A stretch of DNA of 43,530 nt. Origin: Zygnema cylindricum (lineage: Eukaryota > Streptophyta > Zygnematophyceae > Zygnematales > Zygnemataceae). Below the pieces are notes generated by a model. That model was given only the letters and a program-made list of their open reading frames with translations. It made no database searches and was not told the origin of the DNA. A program made the position numbers and the translations under genes. This document shows positions 865 to 38,221 of this stretch, in pieces (within the stretch, counting starts at the first letter, position 1; every line of letters starts with the position of its first letter). Where the stretch lies: the NCBI GenBank assembly GCA_037447655.1, contig JBBHKE010001806.1:1-43530 (forward strand), in the 5' to 3' direction.

Positions 865-974
865 TCAATCATTTTCGGATTTTTTCTGGTGAATTTCCGG
901 AATCTTCCTTTCGTTGGAATATCTTTTCCAACCTTTGTAGCATCCTTTTTGCCAATATTTTTTGTAGTTAAGCT
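865..974 (-). CDS. Gene A last exon: Lys/Trp/Tyr cassette ending in TGA
   Basis: The acceptor GGGTAG precedes AGCTT. The frame reads E-L-N-Y-K-K-Y-W-Q-K-G-C-Y-K-G-W, then YSNERK and a short tail ending TGA at 867-865. The bases after the stop read G|GTAAGA, the usual donor context of this family, where other exons have CGA-G|GTAAG. The terminal stop may therefore have arisen by CGA to TGA in what was once an internal cassette. The core is rich in Lys, Tyr and Trp rather than His. Confidence 0.6.
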
Positions 975-3071
975 CTACCCATAAAAAAAAAGAAAAGCTC
1001 ACTCGTATCAATAAAATTGGAACATTATTTTTCCGCAATTTAAAAATGCTCCCACATAAGTTTATCAAAAACCAAACTGTCATCCTTTATAAATTTTACA
1101 TTTTTTACGTAACATTAGAAGTAAGTAAATTGTGACAACACACAAACCATTGAATTATTTGTCTTACAACATGCATAACAATGACTTCGAGAGTGAATCA
1201 AAGTGTGAATATTTAAAAAAAAAAATGTAAAGTTGTAAGCGAAAGATTGCAAAGCATCAAAATCACAATAAAATTCATAATGCAAATCAACAATATTAAA
1301 AGTTACTATTTTCACCTCTCCCATCTTCAAGAGTCTCCCGTCCATCTTCGAGGGTTTCCCTCTCACTCGAATATCTCCCAAAATGTTTGCAATGGTGGTG
1401 GTGATATCCATGTTTGTACCCTTTTTCGTAAAGTTCTAAAAAGCAAAAATAATGAAATAAATAAAAAGAAGAACCCGGAAAAACAACAAATAAGAAAACA
1501 CAAAACGCCATTTGCATCAGCTTGTACACCTGATAAAAGACAATCAAAAATAAAAGAGTTCAAAAGAATAAAATTTATAAACTTCCACATTTATAATTTA
1601 AATTACAGTACGATTGTAGAATAACACGTCGGTAACCTTTACCTCTTTCATCATCGAGCATTTCTCGCCCATCATCATCAAGCATTTCTCTCTCAGTTTC
1701 GAGATTTTGGCGTCCATCTTCGAGAGTCTTCCTCTCATTCGAATAATATGTTCCATAATGGCCATGATAAGGACGATGATGATGATGACGATGACGATAA
1801 TGACGGCGATGTCCATCTTTCCACCCGTCGTCATAATAACGAAGCTGTCGTCATAATAACGAAGCTTTGCATTAAGAGAAATCAACAAGTGTGTGAAAAA
1901 GTGTGTGTTTAACAGAGAGAGATGGAGAGAGGGGGGAAAGGGAGAGAGGTAGAGAGAGAGAGGGTGAGAGGGAGAGGGAGAGAGAGAGAGAGCGGGAGAG
2001 AGATTTTATCATGCTATGCTGTAACAATCGGGGCTAAGGTGATGTTTACCCTGTTAAAAGTAGCCGAATTTGACAACTGCATGAGTTTACGAAGGTTGCA
2101 AAACAGGTACTCTTTAAGCCAAATCCATAAACAAGCTAAAATATATTTTTTTACCCCTACTCTGTTTACCTCTTCCATCATCAAGAGCTCCTCGTCCTTG
2201 TGCCCGAAAGAAAAGGACAAAGACGAGACAAGAAAAATGTGAAAACAACTAAAAAAAACGACTTCATATAAAATAATGGAAACGCCATACGTTCCTATAC
2301 ATCTAGCAAGATCAAAATGTTCCCGAAAATATGACATTCTTAATACACATAATTTAAGCCGTTGTATATGCAAAGAGAAGTAAATGATTCAAAAATTATA
2401 TTTACAAATTTACCTCTTCCATCATCAAGATTTTCTCGCCCCTCCTCGAGTGTTTCTCGTCCATCTACAAGTGCTTGTCTCTCACTCGAATAATATTTTC
2501 CGCAATGATGTCGATGATGATGATGATGATGGCCACGTCTCCACTCATCAAGTTCTACATTTCAAAAGGAAAAAAAAAAAAAAAACAACAATATAAATCA
2601 TAATAAAATGATGGACATATGAAAGAGTTTTATCTTCCATTTTAAAGTGCTGTTTTTCTTACTCGATTCATGTCGTCCACGAAGCTCACAATGATAACAA
2701 TGGTAACACTATACAACGAAAACTAACAACCAAGGTTTCTTGAAAAATGCAAAGACTTGAAAAAATCGTCTACGAAATTAATGAAACTGAAACAAAATAA
2801 GTACACAACACCAACTTCACGTTGTGTGGAAAATATTATGTAAACAATAACCTTAAGACAAAGAAGAAATGTAGGAATCATGGTTCAAACAGCTCGGAAT
2901 ATTTATACAATAACATCAAAGGAAAAGCAAACACTGGTATCAATTTTCACCTCGCCCTTCATCTAGAACTTTCCGTCCACTTGCAACAGAAAATTGAATT
3001 CCGAACATGGAAATTAGGAGGAAAACTCCAAGAAAAGTAACAGAAAACCAAGATACAGATTTCGAAGCCAT
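865..3071 (-). CDS. Gene A: secreted modular protein of the LEDGRE-cassette family
   Basis: No known family was recognised. Proposed minus-strand exons are 3071-2951, 2554-2414, 2196-2170, 1816-1643, 1435-1316 and 974-865. Exon 1 encodes a signal peptide (hydrophobic core FLGVFLLISMFGI) and then GRKVLDEGRG. Every internal exon begins and ends in phase 1, and every junction restores Gly-Arg-Gly followed by Glu, Gly or Asp. Cassettes carry a His-rich variable part and then a charged part such as SSERETLEDGRETLEDGRG. The last exon ends in TGA. The product should enter the secretory pathway; its role is unknown. Two weak points: a remnant exon near 2687-2663 appears unusable, and the exon at 1816 needs an unusual acceptor because of a 20-bp duplication just upstream. 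Confidence is higher for the family and exons 1, 2 and 5 than for the complete splice chain. Confidence 0.6.
1316..1435 (-). CDS. Gene A exon 5: His-rich cassette, intact
   Basis: 120 nt between TTTTTAG and AG|GTGAAA, phase 1 to phase 1. The core reads E-L-Y-E-K-G-Y-K-H-G-Y-H-H-H-H-C-K-H-F-G-R-Y, followed by SSERETLEDGRETLEDGRG. No stop is present. One Cys sits within the His cluster, so metal binding is possible; that is inference only. Confidence 0.7.
1643..1816 (-). CDS. Gene A exon 4: mixed His/Arg cassette
   Basis: The frame is open from 1816 to the donor GAAAGAG|GTAAAG. It reads a stretch of alternating CAT (His) and CGT/CGC (Arg) codons, then SNERKTLEDGRQNLETEREM, then two shorter acidic repeats. 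The expected acceptor region just upstream holds a 20-bp tandem duplication (about 1827-1867) that is not a multiple of three, so I chose the internal acceptor GGAAAG at 1817, which keeps phase 1. The polypyrimidine tract there is poor. The second half closely matches the Arg-rich exon of gene D at 28795. Confidence 0.5.
1912..2003. repeat. GA microsatellite in a gene A intron
   Basis: Interrupted (GA)n with GGGA variants, about 90 bp, inside the intron between gene A exons 3 and 4. Confidence 0.85.
2170..2196 (-). CDS. Gene A exon 3: 27-nt microexon
   Basis: A long T/C-rich tract ends in CACAAG and is followed by 27 nt reading (G)-R-G-A-L-D-D-G-R-(G), then AG|GTAAAC. Both ends are phase 1. 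It resembles the minimal GRKLLEEGRG exon of genes D and E. Very small exons are easy to over-call, so this is moderate to weak. Confidence 0.45.
2414..2554 (-). CDS. Gene A exon 2: hexahistidine-containing cassette
   Basis: 141 nt between AATGTAG and AG|GTAAAT, phase 1 to phase 1, no stop. The core is E-L-D-E-W-R-R-G followed by six His, R-H-H-C-G-K-Y-Y, then SSERQALVDGRETLEEGREN and LDDGRG. The His run comes from a CAT repeat, which can also expand and contract as a microsatellite. Confidence 0.68.
2663..2687 (-). pseudogene. Remnant cassette exon of gene A
   Basis: Minus strand carries AGCTTCGTGGACGACATG, like the AGCTTCGAGGACATG start of gene C cassettes, followed at once by CGAGTAAG. The acceptor is not AG in the needed register, and the alternative register meets TGA. 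It looks like a collapsed cassette that splicing must skip. Confidence 0.4.
2951..3071 (-). CDS. Gene A exon 1: signal peptide plus GRKVLDEGRG
   Basis: ATG at 3071. The N-terminus MASKSVSWF precedes a hydrophobic stretch, then small residues FSVAS suited to signal peptidase cleavage, then GRKVLDEGRG split by the donor GAG|GTGAAA. Gene C has the same layout. Genes D and E have an intron between the signal-peptide part and the GRKLLEEGRG part. Confidence 0.75.
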
Positions 3072-3129
3072 GGTTGTACTAAAGGCCTTTGCGAGTTGGT
3101 GGACCTCTCTTTTACTTTTGAATGTATAA

Positions 3130-3320
3130 TACTCTCTGAGATGGGGAGGGAGGGGGGGAGGGAAAGGTGGAAGGAGTGAGAGAAGGAGAAGGAGAGGGCT
3201 AGCGGGAGGGAGAGGACGAGAGGAGGGGGAGAGAAATTAAAGGAGCACGTATAAGAGGATGAATGAAGGGAAGAAAGAAAGTGTATGGGAGTGGGGGAGA
3301 GGGAGAAGGAGAGAGCTACA
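3130..3320. repeat. GA/GGGA-rich tract upstream of gene A
   Basis: A purine-rich plus strand (CT-rich on the minus strand) lies between the gene A start codon and its TATA-like box. On the transcribed strand it would be a pyrimidine-rich 5' leader. Confidence 0.7.
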
Positions 3321-3377
3321 CTACAATCGAGCTTCCTGTGAAATATTTCCTCCTGATTTTTGCAAGCAGTGGGGAAT

Positions 3378-3385
3378 TATTTATA
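3378..3385 (-). promoter_or_regulatory. TATA box candidate of gene A
   Basis: TATAAATA on the minus strand, about 310 bp upstream of the start codon. Genes C, D and E carry the same octamer 93-115 bp upstream of their starts. The longer distance here is mostly the GA-rich tract. Confidence 0.4.
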
Positions 3386-4592
3386 GCTAGAAATTCAAAA
3401 CTGCGAGTCAAAAGTCAAACAAAATCGAGTCAAATTGATTTGTTTTGCATTCACAAATCACTTCATTCTTCTTTTCCTCTAACTTTCCCTCTTACTTACT
3501 AGCACGGAGACAAATTTACACCACGTGTCAGATAAGATTTTACTCTATTGCTAATGGACACGTTTCAAAAACAACGTCAATTACGATTCCATTTTTCTAA
3601 GTCAATTTTAGAAGGCGAAAGGAATGGGATGGATAGAAAACGGAGCGCCGAACTGAATTGGTCAACGCTGACTTTTTGGCGCGCGTGCTAGAAGTTTCAG
3701 AATTTCAAATCGACGGCTCGATGGTGTCCGCGTGTCAAAATCTTGCGGTACGTTGCATGGCAGTCGAAGGTGACCTGTCGCACTATTTTTTTGAGTTAGG
3801 GTTTTGGTTTGAGATTTAGCTCGGTATTCCTTCGGTACGGAGGCTCAGCTCAGGCCTTAGTACGGTTTTATCGTCACGACTTTTTTTACGGAACTGTAGT
3901 GTACAGCATGAATCAGTGACGTGCTCCAACGTTTAAAACATTTTGCGTTTAAACGTAACATGGACTTTTAAAAGCGTCTCCACGATTTTATTTTTTGGAA
4001 ATCGTTTTTTTCCTTTTTGTTGTAATATTATCCGTTCTAAAGGTACAGTAATGACAAAGACAGACCAAAAATTTGATAATATATTTTTACGAAATTTTAA
4101 GTTGGAGAAAAATAAATAAATGAACAAATAAGCAAAAAATAGGAAATAACAAACGAAACAAACAAACAAACAAACAAACATTGAGACGTTTAAACGTGGT
4201 TTGTCGTTTGAAGGTTTAGCGCTCGACGATTAAACTCAATACTGCGCGAATCGATATTACCGTACGACAGTTATTCGGTGCCTGTTATGTTTAGCCCCTG
4301 AATGAAAAATTACGTTTGGTAACACATTGGTCATTTTTCTAACGCTGGTTAATAAACGGTTCCGAATCGTCCACGTCAAAAAAGGACGCAAGCTAGAACG
4401 TACAACAATAATATACAATCCTCACGCTAGTTTATATGTATTCTCCAAGTAATACCCACGCTAATAATGAACATACCGTACCAGCAATGGTTTACTGCCA
4501 AAAAATCCAATTGAGCTTCATTCTGACGAATCAAAAATAACCTTGTAATTTTATAAATAATATTAATATTTTACGTCTTTACTCCGCAACCA
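3386..4592. other. Non-coding interval, no gene seen
   Basis: No convincing ORF or domain. Repeated GTTTAAACG words occur near 3950 and 4190, and a short ACAAACAA repeat sits near 4155. The interval separates gene A from the tRNA gene. Confidence 0.4.
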
Positions 4593-4675
4593 GCTCCCGT
4601 AGCTCAGTTGGTTAGAGCGTTGGTCTTATGGCTCTAGTAAGCCGAAGGTCGCGGGTTCGAGCCCCGCCGGGAGCA
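4593..4675 (+). tRNA. tRNA-Ile (anticodon UAU) with a 9-nt intron
   Basis: The acceptor stem GCTCCCG/CGGGAGC, D arm GCTC/GAGC with loop AGTTGGTTA, T arm GCGGG/CCCGC with loop TTCGAGC and discriminator A are all intact. The anticodon stem TTGGT (4620-4624) pairs with GCCGA (4641-4645). The loop starts CTTAT, giving TAT at 4627-4629. Nine extra nucleotides interrupt the loop: removing 4631-4639 leaves 74 nt with G at position 37, while removing 4630-4638 leaves the standard loop CTTATAA. The A box and B box (GGTTCGAGCCC) look functional. A T5 run about 35 bp downstream could end Pol III transcription. Confidence 0.92.
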
Positions 4676-4815
4676 AAGGAGAAAAATTATGTCTTCCTCA
4701 AACAGCATTTTTAATATATCCAACCCTATATAAGTACATCAGCATAAAGCCTTAAAGAACAAAATATAATTATTAATCGTGTTTTACGTTCAAGGGTTTA
4801 AATTCAGGGGGGCCG

Positions 4816-4853
4816 AATTAGTGTTATTAACATTTATACCGATTCACGGTGTA
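4816..4853. repeat. Isolated terminal repeat of the GATTCACGGTGTA family
   Basis: GAATTAGTGTTATTAACA followed by GATTCACGGTGTA matches the right end of the element at 19802-20023. No matching inverted end was found upstream, so this is a truncated copy. Confidence 0.45.
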
Positions 4854-5373
4854 CTGCACATAGTACGAACTCTGAAACTTATAGTACTGTACTGAACCTT
4901 GCGATTTTCGGCCTCCGGAGGCAGTGTGGTCGTGTGAGACTATCCACGGCACGCGGCCACGTCGCCCCCCATCCCTTTCGTTTTACGACGCGCCGCGCGG
5001 ACGTTTTCCCACCCAAACTGACGGCCCGACGAAACGCAAAACATTTGAAGCGCCCGTTTAGATGTAAAATTAGCGACCGTGCGACCGTTGCAACGGAAAC
5101 GCTTTTACCGAGACTTCGAACGTTTTTTCATTTCCCAATTATCGCCTTTCAAAAAAGAAGAACCGTTTAATCATTCGTGTCTTCTAGCCTTTCCTTCACA
5201 CGCGCAGCCCATTTCTTCCTTTTTTCGCCCTCTACTGCCTTTTTCCCTTGTTTTCATCTTTAGTGTTGACCCGTTTTTTTCCCTCTCCCGACGGTTTTTC
5301 GCCCCTATCTATTTGTTGGTATTGAGTGTAAGGATTTTGCGCTTTTTATTAGAGTTGTTATTTATTGTGTTTT
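4854..5373. other. Upstream region of the recombinase gene
   Basis: GC-rich to about 5070, then pyrimidine-rich. Two overlapping short ORFs here have no recognisable domain and biased, arginine-rich composition. The pyrimidine-rich part just before the ATG at 5374 could be promoter and 5' leader of the Crypton-like gene. I saw no clear TATA box. Confidence 0.3.
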
Positions 5374-5535
5374 ATGGAGGACCTTGCAAGTAATGCCCTC
5401 ACAAGTAGGGTCGGAAAAAAACGAGTTCGTAACCTACTTCACAAAGGAACCGATGCAAATAGTGATAACGTTCGTAAATTACAAACTAAGAAGAGAAAAA
5501 GACAGGAAAATGTTGTGCCTGGGGGAAGGGAGGAC

Positions 5536-5796
5536 GATGCCGGACCAAGTAGGGGCACACAAGGGGGGGGTAGGGAAGAAGAAGTCGATGCGGGACCAAG
5601 TAGGGGCACTCAAGGGGGGGGTAGGGAAGAAGAAGTCGATGCGGGACCAAGTAGGGGCACTCAAGGGGGGGGTAGAGAAGAGGAAGTCGATGCAGGACCA
5701 TATAGGGGCACTCTGAAGAGTATTGTGGAGCCAGAGGAAGTCGATGCGAGACCAAGTAGGGGCACTCTGAGGAGTATTGTGGAGCCAGCCTCTTTT
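5536..5796 (+). repeat. 51-bp tandem repeat in recombinase exon 1
   Basis: Three near-identical 51-bp units (5536, 5587, 5638) encode DAGPSRGTQGGGREEEV. Two 54-bp variants containing RGTL(K/R)SIVEP follow. The tail upstream of the recombinase core is charged and probably disordered; a basic KKRKR stretch lies just before it and could serve nuclear import. Confidence 0.85.
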
Positions 5797-7904: not shown

Positions 7905-8345
7905 GTTAGGGTCAAAGTGTGATGAAGGTGGGAAAACAGGCAACAGCGGCGACAAAGTGGTGGGGGTGCCGAGGTTGCGGCGGTGGTGAGGTGTTGGCGG
8001 TGGCGAGATGGCGGCGGTGGTGACGTGGTGGCGGTGGCGAGTATGTGGCGGTGGTGACGTGGTGGTGGTGGCGAGGTTTGTGGCGGTGGTGAGGTGGTGG
8101 CGGTGGCGAGGTGGCGGTGATGATGAGGTGGTGGCGGTGGCGAGTATGCGGCAGTGGTGATGTGGTGGTGGTGGCGAAGTGGCGGCGGTGGCGGCGGTGG
8201 TGACGTGATGGCGGTGGCGAGGATGGCGGCGATGATGAGGTGGTGGCGGTGGCGAGTATGCGGCAGTGGTGATGTGGTGGTGGTGGCGAAGTGGCGGCGG
8301 TGGCGGCGGTGGTGACGTGGTGGCGGTGGCGAGGTGGCGGCGGCG
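7905..8345. repeat. GGT/GGC trinucleotide satellite in recombinase intron 6
   Basis: About 440 bp of interrupted GGTGGC repeats with larger repeats inside: a block of roughly 115 bp at about 8120-8225 recurs at about 8236-8340. All frames are open on the minus strand (His/Pro/Arg-rich), which reflects the repeat and not a gene. Confidence 0.85.
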
Positions 8346-10660: not shown

Positions 10661-12246
10661 ATTAAACTCGAGATATTTCGGCTCAAAAATTTCTGGAGTT
10701 ACTAATCGGCACCGTTCGACGAACCATATGGCAAGATCTTGCACTTATGCAAAGGGATTTCCCGGACCATGCATACTTTACCACTTCATTCTTTTTGACA
10801 ATATTAGAAGAATGCGGTCCGGAGTGGCAAACTTTCGCGGAAGCGGTGCATCGAATGGACGAGAAAAAGGACGAAAGGTCCCCTATTGCCGACATTCCAA
10901 TTCCAACGGAGGTCAAAGATGAACTCCGCGCGTTGAGAGTCGGAGTTGACTCTATTCCACCCCTCATAGGAAGAATACGCGAACTCGAAAATATTGTGGA
11001 AAAATTGGGCACAAAATTAGAAACGTGTATTGCGAAGCTTGACACAAGGCTCACGACAACACAACGCCAACTTGACGGAGGATTATCGAGGATTGAGTCA
11101 ATGTTTTTAGGCTTGACACAACGTTTTATGCAACCATTTTCCTTTTCTTCACAACCATCCTTTTTCCCTCCCCCTTGTCCTACTCCTCACCCTCCTCCTC
11201 CCTCTTCATCTACAAATTCACCACCTTTTTCATTTCCCCCTTTTGCACCCATGTCTTCTTCCCAACCAACACCTTCCTTTTCTCAACATCATACATTTAC
11301 TAGTGTCCCTTTCCACCCTATTCATTCCACAACATCTGCTTACCACCTCTCTACATCTACCGATGCCTCTCTCCCCCCTATTTATTCCACGACCTCTCCT
11401 TCCCACCATTCTACATCTACCTATGCCTCTATCCCCCCTATCCATTCCACATCATCTCCTTCTCAAGCTTTTACTTCTACCGATGCCTCTCTTCCCCCTA
11501 TTCTTTCCACGACCTCTCCTTCCCACCATTCTACATCTACCCATGCCTCTATCCCACCTATCTATTCCACATCCTCTCCTTCTCAAACTTTTACTTCTAC
11601 CGATGCCTCTCTTCCCCCTATTCATTCCACGACCTCTCCTTCCCACCATTCTACATCTACCCATGCCTCTATCCCCCCTATCCATTCCACAGTATCTCCT
11701 TCTCATACTTTTACTTCTACAGATGCTTCTCTTCCCCCTATTCATTCCACTTTAGTTCTTACCCCAACTTATGTCAAACTTGATGCATTTCCTATAGATT
11801 GGGCGAATTGGCAAGGATAGACCCTACAAAGCCACGAGTGTGATGTCAAGGTGGAATCTATATTCAACGAGTACCATTATGGGTTGAATGGCCACCCTCC
11901 TATAAAGTTGTTATTCAACACAACTGAAACAGACAAATACAAAACAAAAAAAGGATGTAAATTCATAGTATGGGCAAAGGGAGAGGGGAGGAAGTGGAGT
12001 CGTTGTCTCAATATTTTGCAATGTGTTGAAAAGTTAATGACTGTTCCAGGGTGGGATTTAACAAAAAACATAAACTTTGTTGAAAGAATTAGAATAGAGA
12101 AGTTTGGTGGGAGCACGGCAAAACTTAAAGAGGCCTTATATATAACAACTAAACCAGATTTGAAAGACGGATTGAATGAGAAAGAATTTCAACGAAGGTT
12201 GGGTCGTTTCCAAAAATTAGAAGAGTTACGTGTAATCACGGGTTAA
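10661..12246 (+). pseudogene. Recombinase exon 7: coiled coil, S/T/P repeat and GCR1_C-like domain
   Basis: The acceptor GGAAGCAG fits the phase of exon 6 (AG|A). After an extra A in the run at 10684-10688, the frame is open except for TAG at 11818-11820. Order: FLELL..IWQDLALMQRDFPDH, typical of the segment after the recombinase core; a heptad-like region about 10930-11110 (LRALRVGVDSIPPLIGRIRE); a Ser/Thr/Pro region with seven 60-bp repeats; then VESIFNEYHYGLNGHPPI with downstream basic residues (EGRKWSRC), matching the DNA-binding GCR1_C family in layout. Stop at 12244-12246. Confidence 0.75.
11341..11760 (+). repeat. Seven 60-bp Ser/Thr/Pro repeats in exon 7
   Basis: The unit is exactly 60 bp, seven copies. 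Alternate copies resemble each other more closely, giving a 120-bp higher-order unit. The encoded 20-residue motif is like STSTDASLPPIYSTTSPSHH. It separates the coiled coil from the C-terminal DNA-binding domain and stays in frame. Confidence 0.9.
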
Positions 12247-22750: not shown

Positions 22751-22991
22751 TTTCACTTGTAATGTCCTCAATGACCATGGTATCCCCAATGGTGTCCCCA
22801 ATGGTGTCATCCATCAATCGCGTCCTCAAAGCTCTACATCCAAAACATACACTCAAAGCATTATCTAAATGTCTGTTTACTGAACTAAGTTATGTAAAGT
22901 AAAGAAGTTTCATCCTTCCCAAATGTTATAATTTCGAAAATGGAAATGGTATTAAAAATTCATTGCAAACAACTCCAGCCAGAACGCTTAC

Positions 22992-24752: not shown

Positions 24753-24900
24753 CTGCATCTAAACCAGCAAAGAAGTGTTCAAACAATTCAAGAAACCTAC
24801 GGTACTTTCAGTTGTAACAATTTTACATTCTTTTAACAAAGTACAACAAAAGCATTGTGCCACGAGTCCTGCAAGACATGGTGGTCTTGAAGGCTGGACA

Positions 24901-25084
24901 ACAACCACTTATATACTAGGCATAGTTTTGACTCTAACTCTTGCAAACAACCACTTATATACTAGGCATAGTTTTGACTCTAACTCTTGCAAACAACCAC
25001 TTATATACTAGGCATAGTTTTGACTCTAACTCTTGCAAACAACCACTTATATACTAGGCATAGTTTTGACTCTAACTCTTGCAA
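24901..25084. repeat. Four perfect or near-perfect 46-bp repeats in gene C intron 1
   Basis: The unit begins ACAACCACTTATATACTAGG; copies start at 24901, 24947, 24993 and 25039, with a partial at 25085. High identity indicates recent expansion. Confidence 0.92.
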
Positions 25085-25362
25085 ACAACCACCTGACCAT
25101 CCAGTTTTCAGGTACAACATTGAAATTAATTTGAACTTGGCACTTTTGCAACTAGACTGATGTTTTATTTGCCAATGCCTTCCGCTCTTTCATTGGGCCT
25201 CTCATATTATAAAGGATGTTAGCCTAAAAGCTCTGAGATTTTAAAACACTTTATCTTCGAAAAAGATAAATTTTGGATTGGAATCAGCGGATCTATTGCT
25301 CATACTCTATCCCGTTCATGTCCTCCATAAATATTGAGATAAAAACTCAGTCTGAGACCCAC

Positions 25363-25480
25363 CTCGCCCTTCTTCGAGAATCTTCCGACCACTCACAATC
25401 GAGCCTCGACTCGACAAAAAAACTAGAAATAAAACTCCACAAAAGATGAGAGAAACTCGAGAAAACGAAATGGAAACCAT
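25363..25480 (-). CDS. Gene C exon 1: signal peptide plus GRKILEEGRG
   Basis: 118 nt from ATG at 25480 to GAG|GTGGGT. The hydrophobic stretch is LIFCGVLFLVFL. Layout matches gene A exon 1 exactly, including phase. Confidence 0.7.
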
Positions 25481-27374: not shown

Positions 27375-27522
27375 ATGTCGACAGTTTCTTTTTCGCGAGC
27401 TTGTTTCTTTCTTTTTGGGGTTTTTGTTTTCATTTTTGTGACGGCGATTCAGTGTTCAGTCGATACAAAAGAAAATGAAGGAAAGGATGTTGGTAAGAAA
27501 GTGGGACATAATTTATGCGGAA
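27375..27522 (+). CDS. Gene D exon 1: signal peptide and KENEGKDVGKK segment
   Basis: 148 nt, ATG to GGAA|GTATGT, phase 1. The N-terminus MSTVSFSRACFFLFGVF is a clear signal peptide; a hydrophilic stretch follows with Gly-Lys pairs. Nearly identical in length and sequence to gene E exon 1. Confidence 0.75.
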
Positions 27523-28702
27523 GTATGTCTTATTTTTTTTGGTTGTGATTGTTCGTTTTTTTTCATGGCTTAATTTTCCTGCTTTCTCTTGTTTTTACCG
27601 TTTTTCGAGACATTTTTTTTCAAAATGATACTCTTTGAAGCACATAGAACTAATTTTTTTTGGTGAAGATTTTTTATTTGTCCTTCATTGACTCTTAACA
27701 CACTGTGAATCCTAGTTTATACAAGCAGTTTTTATGCACTAAAAAATGGTACTTTTTTTTTGTTTTTGCTTTACCACCTATGAAGTAAGAAATTCATAAC
27801 CTTTTTTTGTTCTTTTCTTTTTTGTAGGGATTGTCGTCCAAACTGGACGGAAGTTACTCGAAGAAGGACGAGGTAATTCTAAATCATTTGCTAGTTTTTT
27901 TTTTTTTTTCCGTGACATCCAACATTGTTTGTTTCTTTGTTCATATCGCTTTCTTGTTGACATATATCTATATGTCTCGTCCTCTCTATATGTATGACAA
28001 TATACATGCAAATGCATACATACATGTGTACTTGTCCTTGTATACTCATATTTTTATTTTTTGACTGAGGTTTTGTCTATCTTGTTCACTTTCTACGTTA
28101 AGATAGTCGAGAAAGGTGAAACGAATGTAAAGAAATAATCATATAGAAAAAAAATTGTTGAGAATATTTTTTTGACTTGTTTTTGAATACATAAAACCAT
28201 CAAATGGGCTCTGTATTTGTTGGTTTTGTTGTACTCAGTTTTTTACTTCTGATTTATATCTGCTTTTTTGTGTTCATGGTCATAGAACTTAAACACACAT
28301 GGGCCGGAAATAATCCCGAGGGATGGAAAAATGAAAACTTGTACTCACCCGAACGAAAGACATTAGAAGACGAAAGAGAGGTTCTCGAGGATGGAAGAGA
28401 GACTCGCGAAGAAGGGAGAGGTGAAAAGAAAACAATACTATCTTGATTTTTTTTTCCTCGAAAAAACGTTGTCGTCTTTCTTGAGAAAAATTGGTTGACC
28501 TTGTTATTTTCTTGTAAATGAAACTTATAGCTTGTAGACCTATACAGCTTTCATAAATTCACCTTAGCCATGATTTTTGCATCATAGCATGATAAAATCT
28601 CTCCTGTTTGCGCTCTCTCTCTCTCTACCTCTCTCTCTCCCCCTCTCTCCCCCCCTCTCTCTCTCCCTCCCTCTCTCTTCCTCTCTCTCTATCTCTTTTT
28701 CT

Positions 28703-28751: not shown

Positions 28752-30160
28752 ACGCACACATACACAACTTTTCACACTTGTTTTTTGAATGCAGAGCGTA
28801 GGCGTCGTCGTCGCGGTCGTCGCGGCCGTCGTCGTCGTCGTAGAGATGATGATGAGGGGAGGGGGTATCTCGAAGATGGACGCCAAAATCTCGAAACAGA
28901 GAGAGAGATGCTTGATAATGATGGGCGAGAAATGTTAGAGGATCAAAGAGGTGAAGGTTAAGGACATATTATTCTACAATTCTACTATATTTTATCTTTT
29001 TTTATATTGTATATATATATGTTATTATTTTGCATATGAAAATATTTTGAGGCATCTATAATTAATTTTTTTTGGTGAAGGTTTTTCACTTGTTTTTCAT
29101 CGAGTCTGAATACATTGCAAATCCAATCAAGTTCATATAAGCAGTAGAAGGACGAGGAAATTCTGAAAACTTTGTAGTTTTTTTTTTTCCGTAACATCCA
29201 ACATTGTTTGTTTCTTTGTTCATGAAAAGATGATGATTATATCACTTTCTTGTTTATATATGTGTAAATATATACATATATATGTATGTATATATTTATG
29301 TCTTTTCCTCTCAATATGTATGACTATGTACATGCAAATGCATACATACTTCTCGTCCTTGTATAGTCATATTGCGTTTTTTGTCTCAGGTTTTGTCTAT
29401 CTTGTTCACTTTCTTTAAGAAAGTCGGAAGAGGTGAAAGGAAAATAAATAAGTAATCGAATAAGAAAAAAATTGTTGAGCAATAATTTTTGACTTGTTTT
29501 TTAATACATAAAAACATCAAATGGGCTCTATATTTGTTTTGTTTTTTTTTACGTAGTTGTACTGAGTTTTATACTTTTTCTGATTTTCTTTGCTTTTTTG
29601 TGTTTATGGTCATAGAACTTACACAAACATGGGGCGAACGAAAGACATTAGAAGACGGAAGAGAGGTTCTCGAGGATGGACGGGAGAATCGCGAAGAAGG
29701 GGGAGGTGAAAAGAAAACAATACTATCTTGATTTTTTTTTTATCGAAATAACATTGTCGTGTTTCTTGTGAAAAAAATTGACCTTGTTTTTTTCGTATAA
29801 ATGAAACTTTTAGCTTGTAGAAATATATAGCTTGCATAACTTTACCTTAGCCATGATTGTTACATCATAGCATGATATATAGCTTGCATAACTTCACCTA
29901 AGCCATGATTGTTGCATCATAGCATGATAAAACCTTTTCTCCTCTCGCTTCTCCTCGCTCTCACTCACATTAATAATAATAACATACACAACTTTTCACA
30001 CTTGCTTTTTTGAATGCGAGCGAGGGCGCCGCCGCCGGGCCGCCGCGTCAGCGGCCGGTCCGCAAGGAGGATGATGATTAACGGGGAGGGTGACCGATAG
30101 ACGCCAAAATCTCAAACAGAGAAATGTTTGATAAGATAGCGAAAATGCTGGAGAGGTGCC
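27375..30160 (+). CDS. Gene D: secreted LEDGRE-cassette protein
   Basis: Exons: 27375-27522, 27828-27872, 28286-28420, 28795-28950, 29616-29705 and a degenerate last one near 30016-30160. Exon 1 encodes a signal peptide (FFLFGVFVFIFVTAIQC) and KENEGKDVGKKVGHNL. Exon 2 gives RIVVQTGRKLLEEGRG. Exon 3 has a Trp-containing core and then SPERKTLEDEREVLEDGRE. Exon 4 is Arg-rich. Exon 5 is a short version of exon 3. All internal junctions are phase 1. The family is unrecognised and should be secreted. The 3' end is uncertain: the exon at 30016 has lost its AG acceptor and contains stops, so translation may end in retained intron after exon 5, where the frame reads GEKKTILS then TGA. The 28.0-28.96 kb part is duplicated at 29.0-30.15 kb. 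Confidence 0.65.
27828..27872 (+). CDS. Gene D exon 2: 45-nt GRKLLEEGRG exon
   Basis: Acceptor TTTTTTGTAG, donor CGAG|GTAATT, phase 1 both ends. Encodes RIVVQTGRKLLEEGRG across its junctions. Matched in gene E at 37730-37686. A decayed duplicate lies near 29144-29165, where the donor GT has become GA. Confidence 0.72.
28286..28420 (+). CDS. Gene D exon 3: Trp-core cassette
   Basis: 135 nt, acceptor GTCATAG, donor GAGAG|GTGAAA. Core ELKHTWAGNNPEGWKNENLY with two Trp, then SPERKTLEDEREVLEDGRE and TREEGRG. The gene E counterpart has the shorter core ELTQKWAGKWY. Confidence 0.72.
28611..28752. repeat. CT microsatellite in gene D intron 3
   Basis: (CT)n with CCCT interruptions, just upstream of the acceptor of exon 4, where it lengthens the polypyrimidine tract. 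Confidence 0.9.
28795..28950 (+). CDS. Gene D exon 4: poly-Arg cassette
   Basis: 156 nt, acceptor TGAATGCAG, donor AAGAG|GTGAAG, phase 1. Begins E-R-R-R-R-R-G-R-R-G-R-R-R-R-R-R, then an acidic DDDEG and YLEDGRQNLETEREML. The second half matches gene A exon 4, whose first half has His codons where this has Arg. CAT and CGT differ by one transition. Confidence 0.68.
29616..29705 (+). CDS. Gene D exon 5: shortened Trp cassette
   Basis: 90 nt, acceptor GTCATAG, donor GGGAG|GTGAAA. Reads ELTQTWGERKTLEDGREV and LEDGRENREEGGG. The AGxxxYSP part of the core has been deleted in frame compared with exon 3. Confidence 0.65.
30016..30160 (+). pseudogene. Degenerate copy of the Arg-rich exon
   Basis: Aligns with exon 4 (TTTTTTGAATGC context, GC-rich Arg codons, ACGCCAAAATCTC). 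The acceptor CAG has become CGAG, the expected frame hits TGA at the GATGATGATTAA region, and the later part lacks a donor. Confidence 0.55.
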
Positions 30161-30410
30161 ATGTAATTTACAATCGTGACTACATTTTTTCATATATATT
30201 ATATACATGTGTGTATATAAACGCAATGTGTATGTGTGTGGCTGTATGCATGTTTGTGCATGTTATTCTACAATCGCACTACATTTTTTTCATATATATT
30301 ATATACATGTGTGTGCATATATAAATCTAAATGTGTGCATGTGTGTGTATGTATGCATGTTTGTGCATAAACATTTTCACACAATTGTTTTACCATTTTA
30401 TATTTTGGTG

Positions 30411-31099: not shown

Positions 31100-31162
<63 letters not shown>

Positions 31163-31660
31163 ACCCCCTCTCTCCCTCCTCATGCCCCCACTCACTCCCT
31201 CCCTACCTCACTCCCTCCTTCGCGTCTCGTCTCCCTCGCACCTCCCTACCTCGATCCCTCTTTTTTTCGCTCCCCTTCCCTCCCTCTCTCACTCGCCCTC
31301 GCTGTCTTTCTCTCTCTTTTCCTCTTTCCCTCCCTCCTTCCCCCTTTTTATCCCTCTTGCTCTTTCCCTCTTTCCCTCCCTCCTTCCCCTTTTTTATCCC
31401 TCTTGTTGAAACTCAATTAAAACTTATCTATATTTTACCACCTACTTTTCCTACAAGCTACACAAGTCTAGTACTTTAATATAGCGTTCAGTGCCCCTCT
31501 CCCTCCCTCTATCCCTCCTTTCCCCTTCCCCTCTCTCTCTCTCCCTCTCTCTCCCTCTCTCCCTCTCCCCCTCCCCATCTCTCTCTCCCCCCCTCTCTCT
31601 CTCTCCCTCCCTCCCTCCCTCCCTCCCTCCCTCCCTCCCTCTCTCTCCCTCTAATTTATA
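31100..31660. repeat. CT and CCCT microsatellites
   Basis: A pure (CT) run of about 60 bp at 31100-31160, then CTCC/CCCT-rich sequence to about 31400, and a second tract at about 31495-31650 with (CCCT)n. This is the spacer between D and E; long open frames here are artefacts. Confidence 0.9.
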
Positions 31661-32212
31661 CATACCTTCGTTAGTGTAGGAAATCAAAATCGTCACATCC
31701 TTTTTATTTTCTGATTCTTTTTACCGTAACTAGGCCTACCTTCACTAGTCACGCCTAGGATTAGATCTACCTAGAAGCGCCCCTATGGCTTCCCATTCTC
31801 TAGTTTTCTTCAACCTTTTGCTTAAACCTTAAACATTCTCAAATCTTTTGCTTCTTCTTCGTAAATCGTCAAATGACGAGACACCTTTACGACAAATTTA
31901 CCTTTACGACAAATTTTTCATTTGTATTTTTATTGTTTGTGGTTACTTTGCTTTGAACTTTTTGGCCACTTTCTACATTTTGGCCTTTTATTATTGTCTT
32001 TCTCGTTTTGGCCATTCATGTTCTCACATTCGATACTCCCTCCCTCACACCTCTCGCGTTGCCTTTCTCACACTCTCTCTCTCTCGCTGCCTCTCTGTTT
32101 AGCCCCCTCTACGCGGAAATAGGATCACTTTTGAAAAGTCATAAATGTACGGGAATATAGTGGTCGGTGGTATGTTTCCACCAGGTACTTTTCGTCGTAG
32201 TAGTTAAGTTGC

Positions 32213-32275
32213 ACAGTTCAGTCTGAATAGTTTAGGGACAAATCAGTTCAGTCTGAACAGTTTAGGGACAAATCT
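32213..32275. repeat. 29-bp tandem duplication
   Basis: CAGTTCAGTCTGAA(T/C)AGTTT followed by AGGGACAAAT occurs twice in a row. It may lie in the leader or LTR of the downstream Copia element. Confidence 0.75.
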
Positions 32276-32639
32276 AACCGGACAGTACGATAGTGTACCA
32301 TACAGAGCTGATTGGTTGTTAGGTAGTTAGAAAGACTTATTTGCATAAATTATGACTTGGACGTTTTGAACCATAACTTGTACAAGTTCACTAAGTGAAA
32401 AGAGTGTTTTTATGGATGCCTTTGTGCATGGGTAACTTTGGGCCTGATTAGAGTTTCTAGTGATACTGTCAGATTGCTAAGTTAAGTGTGAGCTCTAAGT
32501 GAGTTGTGTTGTGATGGGTCTTGTTGTGCTGAGTGTCAGATGGTCAAAGTAGGCCATTCGTGTGGTACTCTTGGGTTGTCTTTTGCTCAACTAAATGGGC
32601 GACTCTACAGCTTTTGGTAGTGTCCATGTTGCTGTATGT

Positions 32640-34870
32640 GCCCTCATCCCAGGGTACTTAGATTTGATGGAGAGAACTATCTATATTGGAGAGGAATCAT
32701 GAAGCTCTACTTTATTGAAAAAGGGCTCATGAATGTGGCTGGCGGCACACTTGCTGAAACTGATCTGACCTAGAGCAAGAAAAATGGAGCAAGAAAAATA
32801 CTCACAGAGACACTTTCTTTGGAAATTGGAATGGCACATATTCAGATGGACAAGGCAAAAGAAATTTGGACATTATTGGAGGAAATGTATCAACAAACCA
32901 ATATTCAGCGACAAATGATAACCGCCACAAATATTTTTGAATATAAGTACAATGGTGGCTGAATTTCAGATTATTGTTATGACTATAGGAAGTTGTTTCG
33001 AGAAAATGCATGCTCAGGAGGACATTTTTGAGCTGCACAGCAAAGACATGTTACTTAGGAGAGGATTGTCTGAGGAATATAAAGGCGCCTCTGACGCACT
33101 GAAGAAACTTGGAATCTAACACTTGCAATTCAGTTAGTGTTAAAAGAAGAATCTACTAATCTAGCAATGAAATGAAGTAAGACAAGACAAGTATTTAACA
33201 CTCAAATTCAGAATATAAATCAGTATCAGACAGGTCGACCTACTGACACATGGGCCTGTTTTTACTGTTCTAACAAGACTGTCCGGTTCTGAACAAGAAA
33301 ACTCTAACAGGGAATTTTTTAGAGGGATGGAACAGCAACCGGCCCTCTACGAACAAAGGATAAAAATATAAGCGACCCGAAATAGCTTCGGCCTTCTGAA
33401 CATACACAAGAGGAAAGAGAAGACAAAACTGACAAACGAGTCAGCAGCTCGATTTTGACAAGAAAGGAAATGTTTGCACGACGGCCCAAGATTCGCACCA
33501 AAGGAGCAATCACTGGCACATTAAAAGCATCAGCACACAAAGCACCATGTGCGGCGACAGGGAAGTGTTTGAAAATTTTGAGCCCATCCCACCATAGAAC
33601 ATCTACAATACGGATGACAGTTATGTAGTAGCAAGCTCAAAAGGAAAAGTGAAATCTGAAACTCAAAATAGATGGTTAGACAGTAGACAAAATTTTGAGT
33701 GATGTGTTATATAATCCAGATTTTAGCAAGAATCTGTTTAGTACATCCTTGGTAGAGAGCAAAGGATTTGAAGTGAGTATGAAACATGAAAAACAAGTAA
33801 TCAGTATGAATGGATTCATTGCGGCTATAGGAACTAGAGGTGAAAATCTGATGTATAGGTTTGATCTTGCAGACGGATTTAATGAAAAAAAGGTTCTCTA
33901 CTCAACTTTCACCATGATACTGATCTATGCAAAATTGGGGTACGCTCACATGGAAAGATTACAAAATGGTGAAAATGACGTAATAAAAGAGTAGAATTGC
34001 AGAAGCGTTTGAGTGATGGATGTGCTCTAGGAAAATTCACAAATTACCATTTCCAGCTAAAAGTAATCATAGAGCTAAAAGAGTTTTAAAATTAATTCAT
34101 TCAGATGTATTTAGACCTGGAAAGATTTTTAGAATTAATTCATTCAGATGTATTTAGACCTGGAAAGATACTATATGTTCACACTAACGGATGACTTCTC
34201 CAGATAATGAGGGGAGTTCGATATATGCTCACACTAACAAATGATTTCTCCAGATATACTATTCTTAACATCCTAGTACATGGAAAATGGAGCCAAAAGG
34301 AATGCCTGGCATCCTGTTAAGATATGATAACAATGCAAAAGGATATAGAGTTAACTTACCAAATAGTGATAAAATTGTAATATCTAGAAATATACTAATG
34401 AAAGACGAATCAGATTCAGTGGACGTAATTTCTCTTACACCCGACCAGAGAAGAAAAAAGGAAATGGAAACGAAGTGAGACAAGTGACGGAAGAGCGGTC
34501 TGCCACTACTCGGACAGAAACTGATGGATCCACAGAACCAGAAACAGATAAACTCTTAAACTCTTACCCTCCAGAAACGACAAGAACCTCAAGGAGAGAT
34601 CCTTGGATTCCGGCGTTAAATTTTCCGAGGGGGAAAAGGACAAGCACAAGAGAAAAGAGAATCAGTTCGAGACTAAGGGATCCCACAAAAATGTGCACAC
34701 TTTCAGCGGCATCCGGAGAAACCCATCCAAGAAGCCTTTTTTGTACCAGAAAAAGAACATTGGATAGAAGCCGTGAATGACGAAATGAAGTCTGTTATGG
34801 CAGCCCAAACTTGAGAACTCGTTGAGCTTCCATCCGATCGGAAAGCCATCGGAAGTAAAAATAGTAAAAT
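32640..34870 (+). mobile_element. Degenerate Ty1/Copia element, gag to start of RT
   Basis: Order matches Copia: gag (LRFDGENYLYWRGIMKLYFI, IWTLLEEMYQQTN), a zinc-knuckle trace near 33251 (CFYCSNKTVRF), a protease/pre-integrase part (VLYNPDFSKNLFSTSLVESK), integrase traces (the HSDVFRPGKI block tandemly duplicated at about 34095-34165, then DDFSR/NDFSRY), the capping segment (RYDNNAKGYRV, KIVISRNIL) and the RT start near 34770-34860 (DEMKSVMAAQT, ELVELPSDRKAIGSK). Several stops and frameshifts. No LTR was identified. Inserted between genes D and E. Confidence 0.8.
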
Positions 34871-35219
34871 GTCCAAGATTGTGATTCTTTGTCACACTGA
34901 ACAAACCGTATGGAGGCTCAAACAAGTAAAGAGAAAAAACCAACACAATAACGCAAAAAATTCCGACACAAAAAGTACAGAACTCCACAAAAAATGGTAC
35001 CAAAATTGGGAACAAAATTGGGAACAACGATCAAAAGTACAAAATACTGTACAAACATCGAGCAGCTAGCTATACTAAATCCTAAAATGCTCGTTTAGTA
35101 AAATTTCCAAAATTGTGACTCATTGTCACACTAAACAGCAAGAAGGTTCAAAACAGTAAAAGAGAAAAAAACAAAAAAAACAAACCTTGAAAAACTGTCT
35201 ATCGCTGTTTGAAAATGCA

Positions 35220-35338
35220 TCATTTGTGACTGTTCTCTAAAGCTCGTCTGATCTCTAAATCTCTCTTTCTTCTAATGTCCCTCGTTCCGAAGATTTCTCC
35301 ATAACGTTCAAGATTTTCTGTTCCATCGTTCTTGAATT
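35220..35338 (-). CDS. Gene E candidate last exon
   Basis: Acceptor TTTGTTTATAG, phase 1, open to TGA at 35222-35220. Reads E-F-K-N-D-G-T-E-N-L-E-R-Y-G-E-I-F-G, then TRDIRRKRDLEIRRALENSH. Charged and heptad-like but without GRG. It would be reached only if the stop-containing copy at 35609 is skipped. Confidence 0.5.
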
Positions 35339-37542
35339 CTATAAACAAAAAATAAAGAACACCGAAAAAAAAAAAAAAACAACCTCAAAAATAAGTCAAT
35401 ACAAACAATAACAGAAATCCAAATTTGAAGCCCAACTAATGCAACTAAAAACCTTGCTCAAAAAAAGAAGTACAATATTTTCGTTTTTTCTTTCACCTTG
35501 TCCGACTTCGCGATTCCTCGCTTCTATCCTCAATCTCATTCGACTTCCAATGTCCCTCGTCCAGACTTGCGTCTTTTCCGTCGTTGTCTGCGGCTTTGGG
35601 TTTTGAGGTCTATAACCGGAAAAAATCAAAGAAAAAAAGAAAAAAAAGGGAACAAAAGGTAACAAAGGTCAACAATAAGAGAACAAACTCTATAATGAAC
35701 CACAAAAAGTAACAAAAAGTCAGAAAAAAAAAATGAAAAAATTTAGTTGGTTTGTTCACAAACAAGGTCAACAATTTTTCTTTCAAACATATATATTCAA
35801 AAACAGTTTCTTTATTTTCGTGTCACCTCTTCCGTCTTCGAGATCCTCTCTTCCGTCTTCGAGATCCTCTCTTCCGTCCTCGAGAGCCTCCCTTTCGACT
35901 TCTAATGTCCCTCGTCCAGACTTGCGTCTTTTCCGTTGTTGTCTGCGGCTTTGGGTTTTGAGGTCTATAACCGGAAAAAATCAAAGACAAACAAGACAAC
36001 AAAGAGAACAAAAGGTAACAAAGGTAAAAAAAAAGAGAACAAACTCTATAGTGAACCACAAAAAGTAACAAAAAGTAAAAAAAAACAAAAAAAAATACTT
36101 GGTTTGTTGACAAACAAGGTCAACAATTTTTTTTTCAAACATATGTATTCACAAACAGTTTCTTTATTTTCGTGTCACCTCTTCCGTCTTCGAGATCCTC
36201 TCTTCCGTCTTCGAGATCCTCTCTTCCGTCCTCAAGAGCTTCCCTTTGGACTTCTAATGTCCCCCGTTCAGACTTGCGTCTTTTCCGTCGTTGTCTGCGG
36301 CTTTGAGTTTTGAGGTCTATAACCAGAAAAAATCAAAGACAAAAAAGACAATAAAGAGAACAAAAGGTGACAAAGGTCAACAAAAAGAGAACAAACTCTA
36401 TAATGAACCACAAAAAGTAACAAAAAGTGAGAAAAAACAAAAAAATGAAAAAATCTAGTTGGTTTGTTCACAAACAAGGTCAACAACTTTTCTTTCAAAC
36501 ATATATATTCACAAACAGTTTCTTTATTTTCATGTAACCTCTTCCGTCTTCGAGATCCTCTCTTCCGTCCTCAAGAGCCTCCCTTTCGACTTCTAATGTC
36601 CCTCGTCCAGACTTGCGTCTTTTCCGTCGTTGTCTGCGGCTTTGGGTTTTGAGGTCTATAACCAGAAAAAATCAAAGACAAATAAGACAACAAAGAGAAC
36701 AAAAGGTAACATAGGTCAACAATAAGAGAACAAACTCTATAATGAACCACAAAAAGCAACAAAAAGTCAGAAAAAACAAAAAAATGAAAAAATCTAGTTG
36801 GTTTGTTCACAAACAAGGTCAACAACTTCTCTTTCAAACATATATATTCACAAACAGTTTCTTTATTTTCGTGTCACCTCTTCCGTCTTTGAGATCCTCT
36901 CTTCCGTCTTCGAGATCCTCTCTTCCGTCCTCAAGAGCCTCCCTTTCGACTTCTAATGTCCCTCGTCCAGACTTGCGTCTTTTCCGTCGTTGTCTGCGGC
37001 TTTGAGTTTTGAGGTCTATAACCGGAAAAAATCAAAGACAAAAAAAGACAAACAAAAATAACAAAAGGTTCACAAAGGTCAACAACATCATTATTATGTT
37101 CACAAACAATCATGTTTTTCTCAAGAAAGACAAAAACAAAATAAAATCTAGATAATGTTGTTTTCTTTTCACCTCTTCCGTCTTCGAGATCCTCCCTTCC
37201 ATCCTCAAGAATCTCTCTTTTGTCTTCTAGTGACTTTCGTTCGGGTGAGTACCATTTTCCGGCCCATTTTTGTGTAAGTTCTGTGATCAAACCAACCATA
37301 AAAAGTAGAGAAATAAGTAGAAGAACATCAACAAAAACGAAACAAATATAGAGCCCATTTGATGTTTTTTTGTATTCACAAACAAGCCAAAAAATATTGC
37401 TCAACAAAAAAACATTTGTATACGATTATTTTTTGTTTTCATTTCACCTCTTCCATCTTTCTCAAAGAAGAAAGTGAAAAAGACAGACAAAAAAAAAAGT
37501 ACACGATACAATATAGAAGGAAGAGATTTATAGATATTTTTA

Positions 37543-37581
<39 letters not shown>

Positions 37582-38221
37582 AAAGATATATATTCAAGCA
37601 TCTAGTAAAAAACAAAGAAACAAAATGTATGAAGTCACGAACAAAAAAGAGAAAAAATACAAATGATATAGAAATTTAGAATTACCTCGTCCTTCTTCGA
37701 GCAACTTCCGTCCAGTTGGGACGACAATCCCTACAAAAACAAAAACAAAAAAAATGTTATGAATTTCTTACATCATAGGTGGTAAAGCAAAAACAAGAAA
37801 AGTAGCATTTTTTAGTGCATGAAGACTGCTTATATAAACTAGGATTTACAATGTATCAAGAGTCGATGAAGGACAAATAAAAGACCTTCACCAAATAACT
37901 TTAATTATATATGCTTCAAACAATATTATTTTGAAATTAATGGTCTCGAAAAACGGTAAAAACTAGAGAAAGCAAGAAAATTTGAGCTAAAAAAACGTAA
38001 AAACCAAAAAACGTTTTAAACCCAAAAACGTAAAAAAACAAACAATGAGAAACCAAAAGCAAACACAACATACTTCCGAATAAATTATGACCCATTTTCT
38101 TACCAACATCCTTTCCTTCATTTTCTTTTGTATCGATGGAACATTCAAATGTCGTCACAAAAATGAAAAGGAAAACCCCAAAAAGGATAAGAGAAGCACG
38201 CGAAAAATAAACTGTCGCCAT
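35220..38221 (-). CDS. Gene E: secreted LEDGRE-cassette protein, best preserved
   Basis: Exons on minus: 38221-38074, 37730-37686, 37280-37173, 37015-36878, 36655-36539, 36316-36179, 35964-35827, then 35609-35536 and/or 35338-35220. Exon 1: signal peptide (LILFGVFLFIFVTTFEC). Exon 2: RIVVPTGRKLLEEGRG. Exon 3: Trp cassette. Exons 4-7: four nearly identical Arg-rich cassettes, DLKTQSRRQRRKRRKSGRG and then TLEVEREALEDGRED with one or two more LEDGRED heptads. Exons 1-7 have no stop and every junction is phase 1. The copy at 35609 has TGA at 35538-35536: it either ends the protein or is skipped in favour of the exon at 35338, which ends in its own TGA. Unrecognised family; the basic runs could be cleaved by kexin/subtilase-type proteases (inference). 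Confidence 0.72.
35536..35609 (-). CDS. Gene E cassette copy ending in TGA
   Basis: Begins like exons 4-7 (DLKTQSRRQRRKRRKSGRG) but after TLEVE reads TGA. Downstream bases are a shortened, frame-broken LEDGRED region ending ACAAG|GTGAAA near 35497. It may be a true terminal exon or a decayed copy. Confidence 0.5.
35827..35964 (-). CDS. Gene E exon 7: Arg-rich cassette
   Basis: 138 nt, acceptor GGTTATAG, donor GAAGAG|GTGACA. One Arg of the basic run is Gln here (RRQQRKRRK). Two LEDGRED heptads and LEDGRG follow. Confidence 0.72.
36179..36316 (-). CDS. Gene E exon 6: Arg-rich cassette
   Basis: 138 nt, same layout. SERG replaces SGRG and EVQREALEDGRED replaces EVEREALEDGRED. Confidence 0.72.
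36539..36655 (-). CDS. Gene E exon 5: Arg-rich cassette, one heptad fewer
   Basis: 117 nt. The donor is GAAGAG|GTTACA, weaker than GTGACA in its sisters. An exact 21-bp (one heptad) deletion keeps the phase. Confidence 0.68.
36878..37015 (-). CDS. Gene E exon 4: Arg-rich cassette
   Basis: 138 nt, acceptor GGTTATAG, donor GAAGAG|GTGACA. The last heptads read LEDGREDLEDGREDLKDGRG. Confidence 0.73.
37173..37280 (-). CDS. Gene E exon 3: Trp-core cassette
   Basis: 108 nt, acceptor TGATCACAG, donor GAAGAG|GTGAAA. Core ELTQKWAGKWYSPERK, then SLEDKREILEDGREDLEDGR. Homologous to gene D exons 3 and 5. A trace of another exon end (GATGGAAGAG|GTGAAA) lies near 37448-37460 without a usable start. Confidence 0.73.
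37551..37578. repeat. TA microsatellite in a gene E intron
   Basis: (TA)n of about 28 bp between exons 2 and 3. Confidence 0.85.
37686..37730 (-). CDS. Gene E exon 2: 45-nt GRKLLEEGRG exon
   Basis: Acceptor TTTTTGTAG, donor CGAG|GTAATT. Differs from gene D exon 2 by Gln to Pro (RIVVPTGRKLLEEGRG). Confidence 0.73.
38074..38221 (-). CDS. Gene E exon 1: signal peptide
   Basis: 148 nt from ATG at 38221 to CGGAA|GTATGT, same length and phase as gene D exon 1. Starts MATVYFSRASLILFGVF; the segment KENEGKDVGKKMGHNL is conserved with gene D. Confidence 0.76.

Follow-up and report, generated by a model that had tools for sequence, protein, structure and literature searches.

Four predicted genes of Zygnema cylindricum with repeated cassette exons: candidate secreted multi-core precursors built on an arginine-heptad spacer

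The Ib-AMP precursor of Impatiens balsamina is described as holding six basic peptides, each of 20 residues with four cysteines, between acidic propeptides of 16–35 residues (PMC10136942). Apidaecin is described as having several exons, each of which encodes one peptide, and for ant hymenoptaecin the same account gives EAEP spacers, RR or RxxR sites and repeats that lie within one exon (PMC3415428). Several cores per secreted precursor also occur among the burpitides and plant ribosomally synthesized and post-translationally modified peptides (RiPPs), as outlined in PMC11253845. The shepherins of Capsella bursa-pastoris are listed as cysteine-free (PMC10136942), and shepherin I is reported to bind Zn and to be antifungal with Zn, no antibacterial activity having been seen in the work described there (PMC10698721). 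The present analysis concerns four loci, A, C, D and E, in a stretch of 43,530 nucleotides from Zygnema cylindricum (Zygnematophyceae; assembly GCA_037447655.1, contig JBBHKE010001806.1, positions 1 to 43,530, hereafter the window). They appear to make up one secreted family, with a signal-peptide exon in each and 20 cassette-type exons altogether. Their exon models are predictions from sequence, and at that level the cassette family noticed in the first-pass annotation of this DNA appears largely real.

The cassettes are homologous across the genes at the protein level. A profile made from gene A only gave 17 matches at an independent E-value (iE) below 1e-3 among the 2133 six-frame open reading frames (ORFs) of the window, three being its own training exons and the other 14 cassettes or degenerate copies from genes C, D and E; a profile of 11 cassettes likewise gave 17 in the window. 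With neither profile was there a match at this threshold in any of 20 Markov-1 simulated sequences, where the best iE was 0.037. C7 and E8 were matched by some single-gene profiles only, and A3 and A6, which no single-gene profile of the four recovered below 0.1, are by-eye readings. The acidic tails of the cassettes are also constrained in the proposed reading frame. Over 45 non-independent pairs between four groups, three of these pairs being within gene E, the proportions of synonymous and nonsynonymous sites that differ (pS and pN) were 0.86 and 0.19 in this frame, as against 0.39 and 0.33, and 0.18 and 0.38, in the two shifted frames. In three disjoint between-gene pairs the tail mismatches fell 18, 9 and 35 times on codon positions 1, 2 and 3 (p = 0.00015), and six of nine single between-gene pairs had p below 0.05.

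The genes share one plan: after a predicted signal peptide comes a half-spacer, GRK-[V/I/L]-L-[D/E]-E-G-R, and after that a series of one-exon cassettes set between phase-1 introns. The hydrophobic N-termini are conserved in all four, the signal peptides being judged by eye, and TATAAATA is found 100–121 bases upstream of the ATG in C, D and E and 312 bases upstream in A. A cassette usually consists of E/D-L, a core of 13–28 residues, a hinge, and two to four acidic heptads of the form xLEDGRE. The cores contain zero or one Cys and are His-rich in A, Gly/His-rich in C and Arg/Lys-rich in D4 and the E array; the hinge reads aromatic-S-x-E-R in A, C, D3 and E3. Eleven internal tails were measured, at 16–31 residues. 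In ten of 11 tails compared for it the Arg spacing is exactly seven, D3 having one extra Arg; A4 contains one Arg step of eight residues. Exons end in Gly and Arg codons plus one G, and the following exon opens with AA-CTT, AG-CTT or AC-CTC. The exon-final G is the first base of a split GAA, GAG or GAC codon, which gives a protein sequence of Gly-Arg-Glu/Asp-Leu. With no Gly separating Arg from Glu (...LEDGR-EL...), the heptad runs unbroken into the next cassette. The junction had been annotated as GRG-(E/D), which was an error: the split codon, read directly from the sequence, gives GR-(E/D)-L. As the intron phases match, duplication, loss or skipping of a cassette would leave the frame intact, and within a predicted tail the number of heptads can rise or fall in units of 21 nt.

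The tail-plus-donor pattern, GGN-(CGN/AGR)-G with GT directly after it, occurs at 23 sites on the two strands of the window, 18 of which are exons of the cassette family and five of which are not. A4, C3 and the terminal exons escape this pattern, and the exon count also draws on reading frames and exon tables. The cassette-type exons are A2–A6, C1–C7, D3–D4 and E3–E8, to which two half-spacer exons (D2 and E2) are added. In all 16 non-terminal cassettes the tail is immediately followed by GT and the length is a multiple of 3, although for A3, A4 and C1 the length is so by construction, their starts having been chosen to keep the frame; AG stands immediately 5' of NN-CTN in 11 of the 16. Nine of the 20 are clean internal cassettes (A2, A5, C5, D3 and E3–E7) and four are stop-bearing terminal exons (A6, C7, D4 and E8). 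Three more can be read solely through a shifted acceptor (A4, C1 and C6), one is a stub (A3), and three have in-frame stops (C2, C3 and C4), C3 and C4 also lacking an acceptor AG. The original description of these loci is thus confirmed for the four signal-peptide exons and the 20 cassette-type exons, but its cassettes are not all sound, some being broken by stops or lost acceptors and one reduced to a stub. Similarly, its phase 1 at both exon ends holds for internal cassettes and fails for the signal-peptide and terminal exons.

Gene A is on the minus strand. Its exon 1 (2951..3071) encodes the signal peptide and the first half-spacer, ending SGRKVLDEGR, and is followed by A2 (2414..2554), an intact cassette with a His-run core and an acidic tail of three heptads. 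A3 (2170..2196) is the stub GRGALDDGR, a tail remnant matched by no profile. A4 (1643..1816) has a His/Arg core, and 20 bp are duplicated where the exon begins; the cassette carries AA at the position of the acceptor AG of D4 and is open only via a downstream acceptor. A5 (1316..1435) is intact, with a His-rich core that includes one Cys, and the terminal cassette A6 (865..974; ELNYKKYWQKGCYKGWKRYSNERK...) has a non-acidic tail and ends in TGA.

Genes D and E are, to judge from their exons, paralogues: over three exons the nonsynonymous and synonymous divergences (dN and dS) are 0.119 and 0.226, and the introns differ by 0.18 and 0.39. Gene D, on the plus strand, consists of a signal-peptide exon (27375..27492), a phase 1-1 half-spacer exon (27828..27872; GIVVQTGRKLLEEGR), the intact cassette D3 (28286..28420), whose core is non-basic, and the terminal D4 (28795..28961), with a poly-Arg core and a tail near-identical to that of A4, which runs past a donor-like site to TAA. 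Gene E, on the minus strand, has a signal-peptide exon that is a paralogue of D exon 1 (38104..38221) and a half-spacer exon (37686..37730; GIVVPTGRKLLEEGR). Five intact cassettes then follow: E3 (37173..37280), E4 (36878..37015; Arg/Lys core), E5 (36539..36655; shorter by one heptad, 21 nt), E6 (36179..36316) and E7 (35827..35964). The terminal E8 (35536..35609) retains a core and stops where the tail would begin (GTLEVE-stop). Compared with their majority sequence, four copies of the E array have five synonymous and four nonsynonymous changes (one-sided p = 0.033). One copy is short by exactly one heptad, and the intron pairs that have indels show 8 gap columns. Downstream of D, at 28970-30200 on the plus strand, a degenerate second copy of its exons 2–4 can be made out by eye; the copy of the third exon is open, with its final Arg changed to Gly, and was matched in the single-gene profile search. 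The flanks of D and E (about 26.4-27.4 kb, plus strand, and 38.2-39.2 kb, minus strand) look by eye like inverted copies over about 1 kb, the alignment of these flanks covering only the parts inward of 27.1 kb and 38.56 kb.

Gene C, also on the minus strand, opens with an exon for the signal peptide and half-spacer that ends SGRKILEEGR (25363..25480). C1 (24608..24742) has a Gly/His core, lacks the usual EL start and uses an alternative acceptor. C2 (24341..24466) has TGA in frame, C3 (24076..24201) has no acceptor AG and TGA as its last codon, and C4 (23811..23936) has no acceptor AG and TGA in frame. C5 (23546..23671) is intact, with a Gly/His/Arg core holding one Cys. In C6 (23281..23406) TGA is the third codon from the usual acceptor, and the exon is open from a second AG 9 bases downstream (23397). 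The terminal C7 (23017..23135) has a Gly/His core and ends TLEQEREG-stop. Over the five copies of the 265-bp C unit, exons diverge by 0.122 and introns (four copies) by 0.103, with dN 0.115 and dS 0.152; four of the five copies contain a stop. CpG transitions account for 11 of the 41 changes from the consensus. The C array has probably been relaxed and is dead in part. Inclusion of C2 would end translation at that cassette, and the phase-1 symmetry would permit the skipping of bad C cassettes. The stops of C2, C3, C4 and C6 are all TGA, and A6 and E8 also end in it; TAA closes C7 and D4. The possibility that TGA is a sense codon was considered, with no formal test, and set aside: two of the four stop changes are C-to-T at CpG, two of the copies are also without an acceptor and the array shows no constraint, so that decay is the simpler account. 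The idea that every array is a live coding unit is weakened by the C array, which lacks detectable constraint and is in part broken, the four copies of the E array being intact. About four identical tandem copies of 46 bp lie at 24900-25092, between the signal exon and the first cassette of gene C, and a further degenerate cassette start with two stops is seen past the terminal exon, at 22760-22860 (minus strand).

Cassette number and core type both appear to evolve, much as had been suggested from the first reading of this DNA. For number, the evidence is the tandem exon-plus-intron units, of 265 bp in C and about 339 bp in E; for core type it is the comparison of A4 with D4, where the core has changed and the tail has been kept. 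The two tails are identical at 75 of 82 bases, and similarity extends to 38 of the first 60 bases past the donor position and, with 10 gap columns, to 30 of the 43 aligned bases upstream of the acceptor. In the cores 38 of 74 aligned bases match (0.51) and there are 69 gap columns; when the A4 core was shuffled 30 times, the mean was 0.42 and the highest value 0.51, equal to that observed, and a faint residual similarity of the cores is therefore possible. The A4 core is His/Arg and that of D4 nearly pure Arg, and so by its predicted sequence the core has turned over yet stayed basic. Exchange of cassettes between genes, beyond tandem duplication, seems to have taken place. His (CAT/CAC) and Arg (CGT/CGC) codons are one transition apart, which perhaps makes such a switch of core easy. 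A wider proposal, doubtful and on the whole unlikely, is that this is a previously undescribed eukaryotic family that works as an exon library, in which matched phase-1 introns would let core-plus-spacer cassettes be copied or moved between neighbouring genes, with the Arg-heptad spacer fixed and the cargo switching between His-rich peptides, gated by pH or metal, and Arg-rich ones that are charged at all times. If true, this would be a secreted precursor with one part per exon, the number and chemistry of whose cargo could be changed with the rest untouched, and A4 and D4, with near-identical tails and replaced cores, would let cargo replacement be watched directly. It would also add a LEDGRE-spacer family to the known precursors of multiple cationic peptides.

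The likeness to multi-core peptide precursors that was drawn from the first reading is borne out by charge, and by a plan that resembles the apidaecin and Ib-AMP precursors. Charges were calculated for 16 open cassettes, 15 of them with a tail, taking the pKa of His as 6.0, ignoring chain ends and counting the leading E/D in the core. The core is more positive than its own tail in 15 of 15 cases, and at pH 5 the cores are net positive in 15 of 16, the exception being D3. We tentatively favour, at somewhat less than an even chance, the reading that A, C, D and E are paralogous secreted multi-core precursors. The precursor would enter the secretory path with each acidic spacer neutralising a basic core in transit, and cuts at spacer Arg sites would then free several cationic, partly metal-binding peptides. 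Outside the cell these might act on microbes or other anionic surfaces, and the His-rich cores might become more charged where the extracellular space is acidic or where Zn or Cu is present. An Arg about every seven residues is only suggestive of release sites, and RK occurs at the hinge in eight of the 16 open cassettes, the remainder having a lone Arg or no tail.

A number of observations weigh against these genes being multi-core precursors. At pH 7 three of the 16 cores are non-basic (C1 -0.5, D3 -0.9 and C7 -0.4), D3 being so at pH 5 too, and A6 has a tail that is not acidic. None of the 11 compared tails contains RR, the site given for hymenoptaecin, and with RK at the hinge in only half of the open cassettes the place of cutting is a guess. 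Of the ten ORFs submitted to Pfam, none was noticed to encode a processing enzyme. AlphaFold2, run on a 10-row cassette alignment, gave no confident model (mean predicted local distance difference test 61, predicted template modelling score 0.12), and no secondary structure was reported. Among the signs of coding, three of the nine single between-gene tail pairs were not significant, exons 2 and 3 of D and E taken alone show little constraint (dN 0.119 and dS 0.158), and no constraint is detectable in the C array (31 nonsynonymous or stop changes to 10 synonymous), where core divergence also does not significantly exceed that of the tails (p = 0.09).

The main rival, a real if rather doubtful possibility, is that the protein is left unprocessed and serves as a disordered secreted repeat protein of the wall, the mucilage or a mineralising matrix, its cores and heptads binding metals or polyanions or co-condensing as a charge-alternating polymer. 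Such a protein would suit the alternating charge blocks, the near-exact Arg periodicity through the spacer, the lack of a confident predicted fold and the nearly identical E repeats; the change of core from His to Arg beside a kept spacer is more like independent cargo than one polymer, and the live cassettes per gene are few. Were the peptides not released, this would still be an unusual charge-alternating secreted protein. It is quite unlikely that the family is decaying or non-functional, its exons mere remnants and its coding signal inherited from a functional past. The stops in four of five C copies, the acceptors lost in C3, C4 and A4, the duplication in A4 and the degenerate second copy behind D all point that way, but in the E array the frame and splice sites are kept, the indel is the size of one heptad and, per site, synonymous change exceeds nonsynonymous; D and E are also in frame, and across three exons their dN is lower than dS.

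Two further accounts retain the idea of several cores in one precursor and give them other fates. Signalling-peptide precursors, each with several receptor-ligand cores, are improbable here. A signal peptide, several cores and the half-spacer motif R-K-[V/I/L]-L would agree with this, and the motif is one that we take, as a lead, to resemble S1P-type subtilase sites; the cores, however, are poorly conserved between paralogues, unlike receptor ligands, of which low-complexity His or Arg runs are, to our knowledge, untypical. For comparison, an RRLL motif is described in one moss RALF precursor, with S1P cleavage at RR (PMC9933782). Precursors of enzymatically modified peptides, of the plant RiPP type, are highly improbable: variable cores do lie in numbers between conserved flanks, and an aromatic residue stands right before S-x-ER in six of ten aligned cassettes, but the four predicted proteins had no BURP match at E up to 1, so that none is fused to this domain. 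The RiPP cores known to us are short, and those of the cassettes differ in length and in their low complexity.

Other features of the window include a tRNA-Ile gene with anticodon TAT at 4593-4675 (plus strand), the 83-base length of which suggests a short intron. A region at 10666-12243 (plus strand) has a GCR1_C match above cut-off and an NDC10_II match below it, suggesting a Crypton-like tyrosine-recombinase element, and a second such element may be present at 5.3-7.8 kb, by eye; Cryptons are described as relatively rare in eukaryotes (PMC11630846). Fragments of Copia-type retroelements were seen at 33680-33991 (plus strand; Pol_BBD match below cut-off) and at 40296-41389 (minus strand; RNase H-like by eye, with no Pfam match). 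At 7957-8343 there is a tandem repeat, about 390 bp long, whose units are 34 and 112 bp. The T-rich introns, together with the TATAAATA boxes and the Copia-type fragments, were taken as pointing to a plant, a question that the Crypton-like GCR1_C match does not settle.

Searches for relatives of the cassette genes covered several collections. In Pfam the four predicted proteins matched seven families at E up to 1, none of them at its cut-off, the best being DUF2564 (E 0.00018; 22.3 bits against a cut-off of 26.3). A 97-residue composite had three matches in a sequence search of PDB, none significant (best E 0.21). Two scans of viral contigs gave 19 and 89 pattern matches, none of which was confirmed, and so yielded no relative. 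Among prokaryote genomes one of 118 pattern matches was confirmed, in a metagenome-assembled genome of Prosthecobacter, over 21 query residues at 62%, and this was taken as chance in a charged repeat. A literature search for LEDGRE and LEDGRET returned nothing relevant by title, and the cassette family is not described within the literature searched; it is provisionally regarded as new.

We know of no LEDGRE spacer in the shepherins, whose Gly/His-rich composition is like that of the C cores. The mark of burpitide precursors is a BURP domain, fused or in trans, to which the predicted proteins of the cassette genes showed no match, and these genes have no comparable short fixed core. With the Ib-AMP precursor, as described in PMC10136942, they share a putative signal peptide, short basic segments and acidic spacers, of 16–35 residues there and 16–31 here. 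They differ, the comparison being one of descriptions, in having at most one Cys per core, a His/Arg-rich composition and separate exons, and were not placed with the Ib-AMPs, since the 20-residue peptide with four cysteines has no counterpart among cores that hold zero or one. Apidaecin and hymenoptaecin precursors carry repeated antimicrobial peptides with acidic spacers, an arrangement like that of the putative core peptides here, and apidaecin, as presented in PMC3415428, also has one peptide per exon. Membership of the hymenoptaecins was likewise rejected: their EAEP spacers, RR or RxxR sites and single-exon repeats, as given in that account, contrast with separate exons here and a spacer that reads xLEDGRE, with no EAEP. 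Nothing indicates homology to apidaecin or Ib-AMP, and the likeness would be one of build only. Multi-peptide precursors with acidic spacers are already known, the predicted spacer of the present genes being an LEDGRE heptad.

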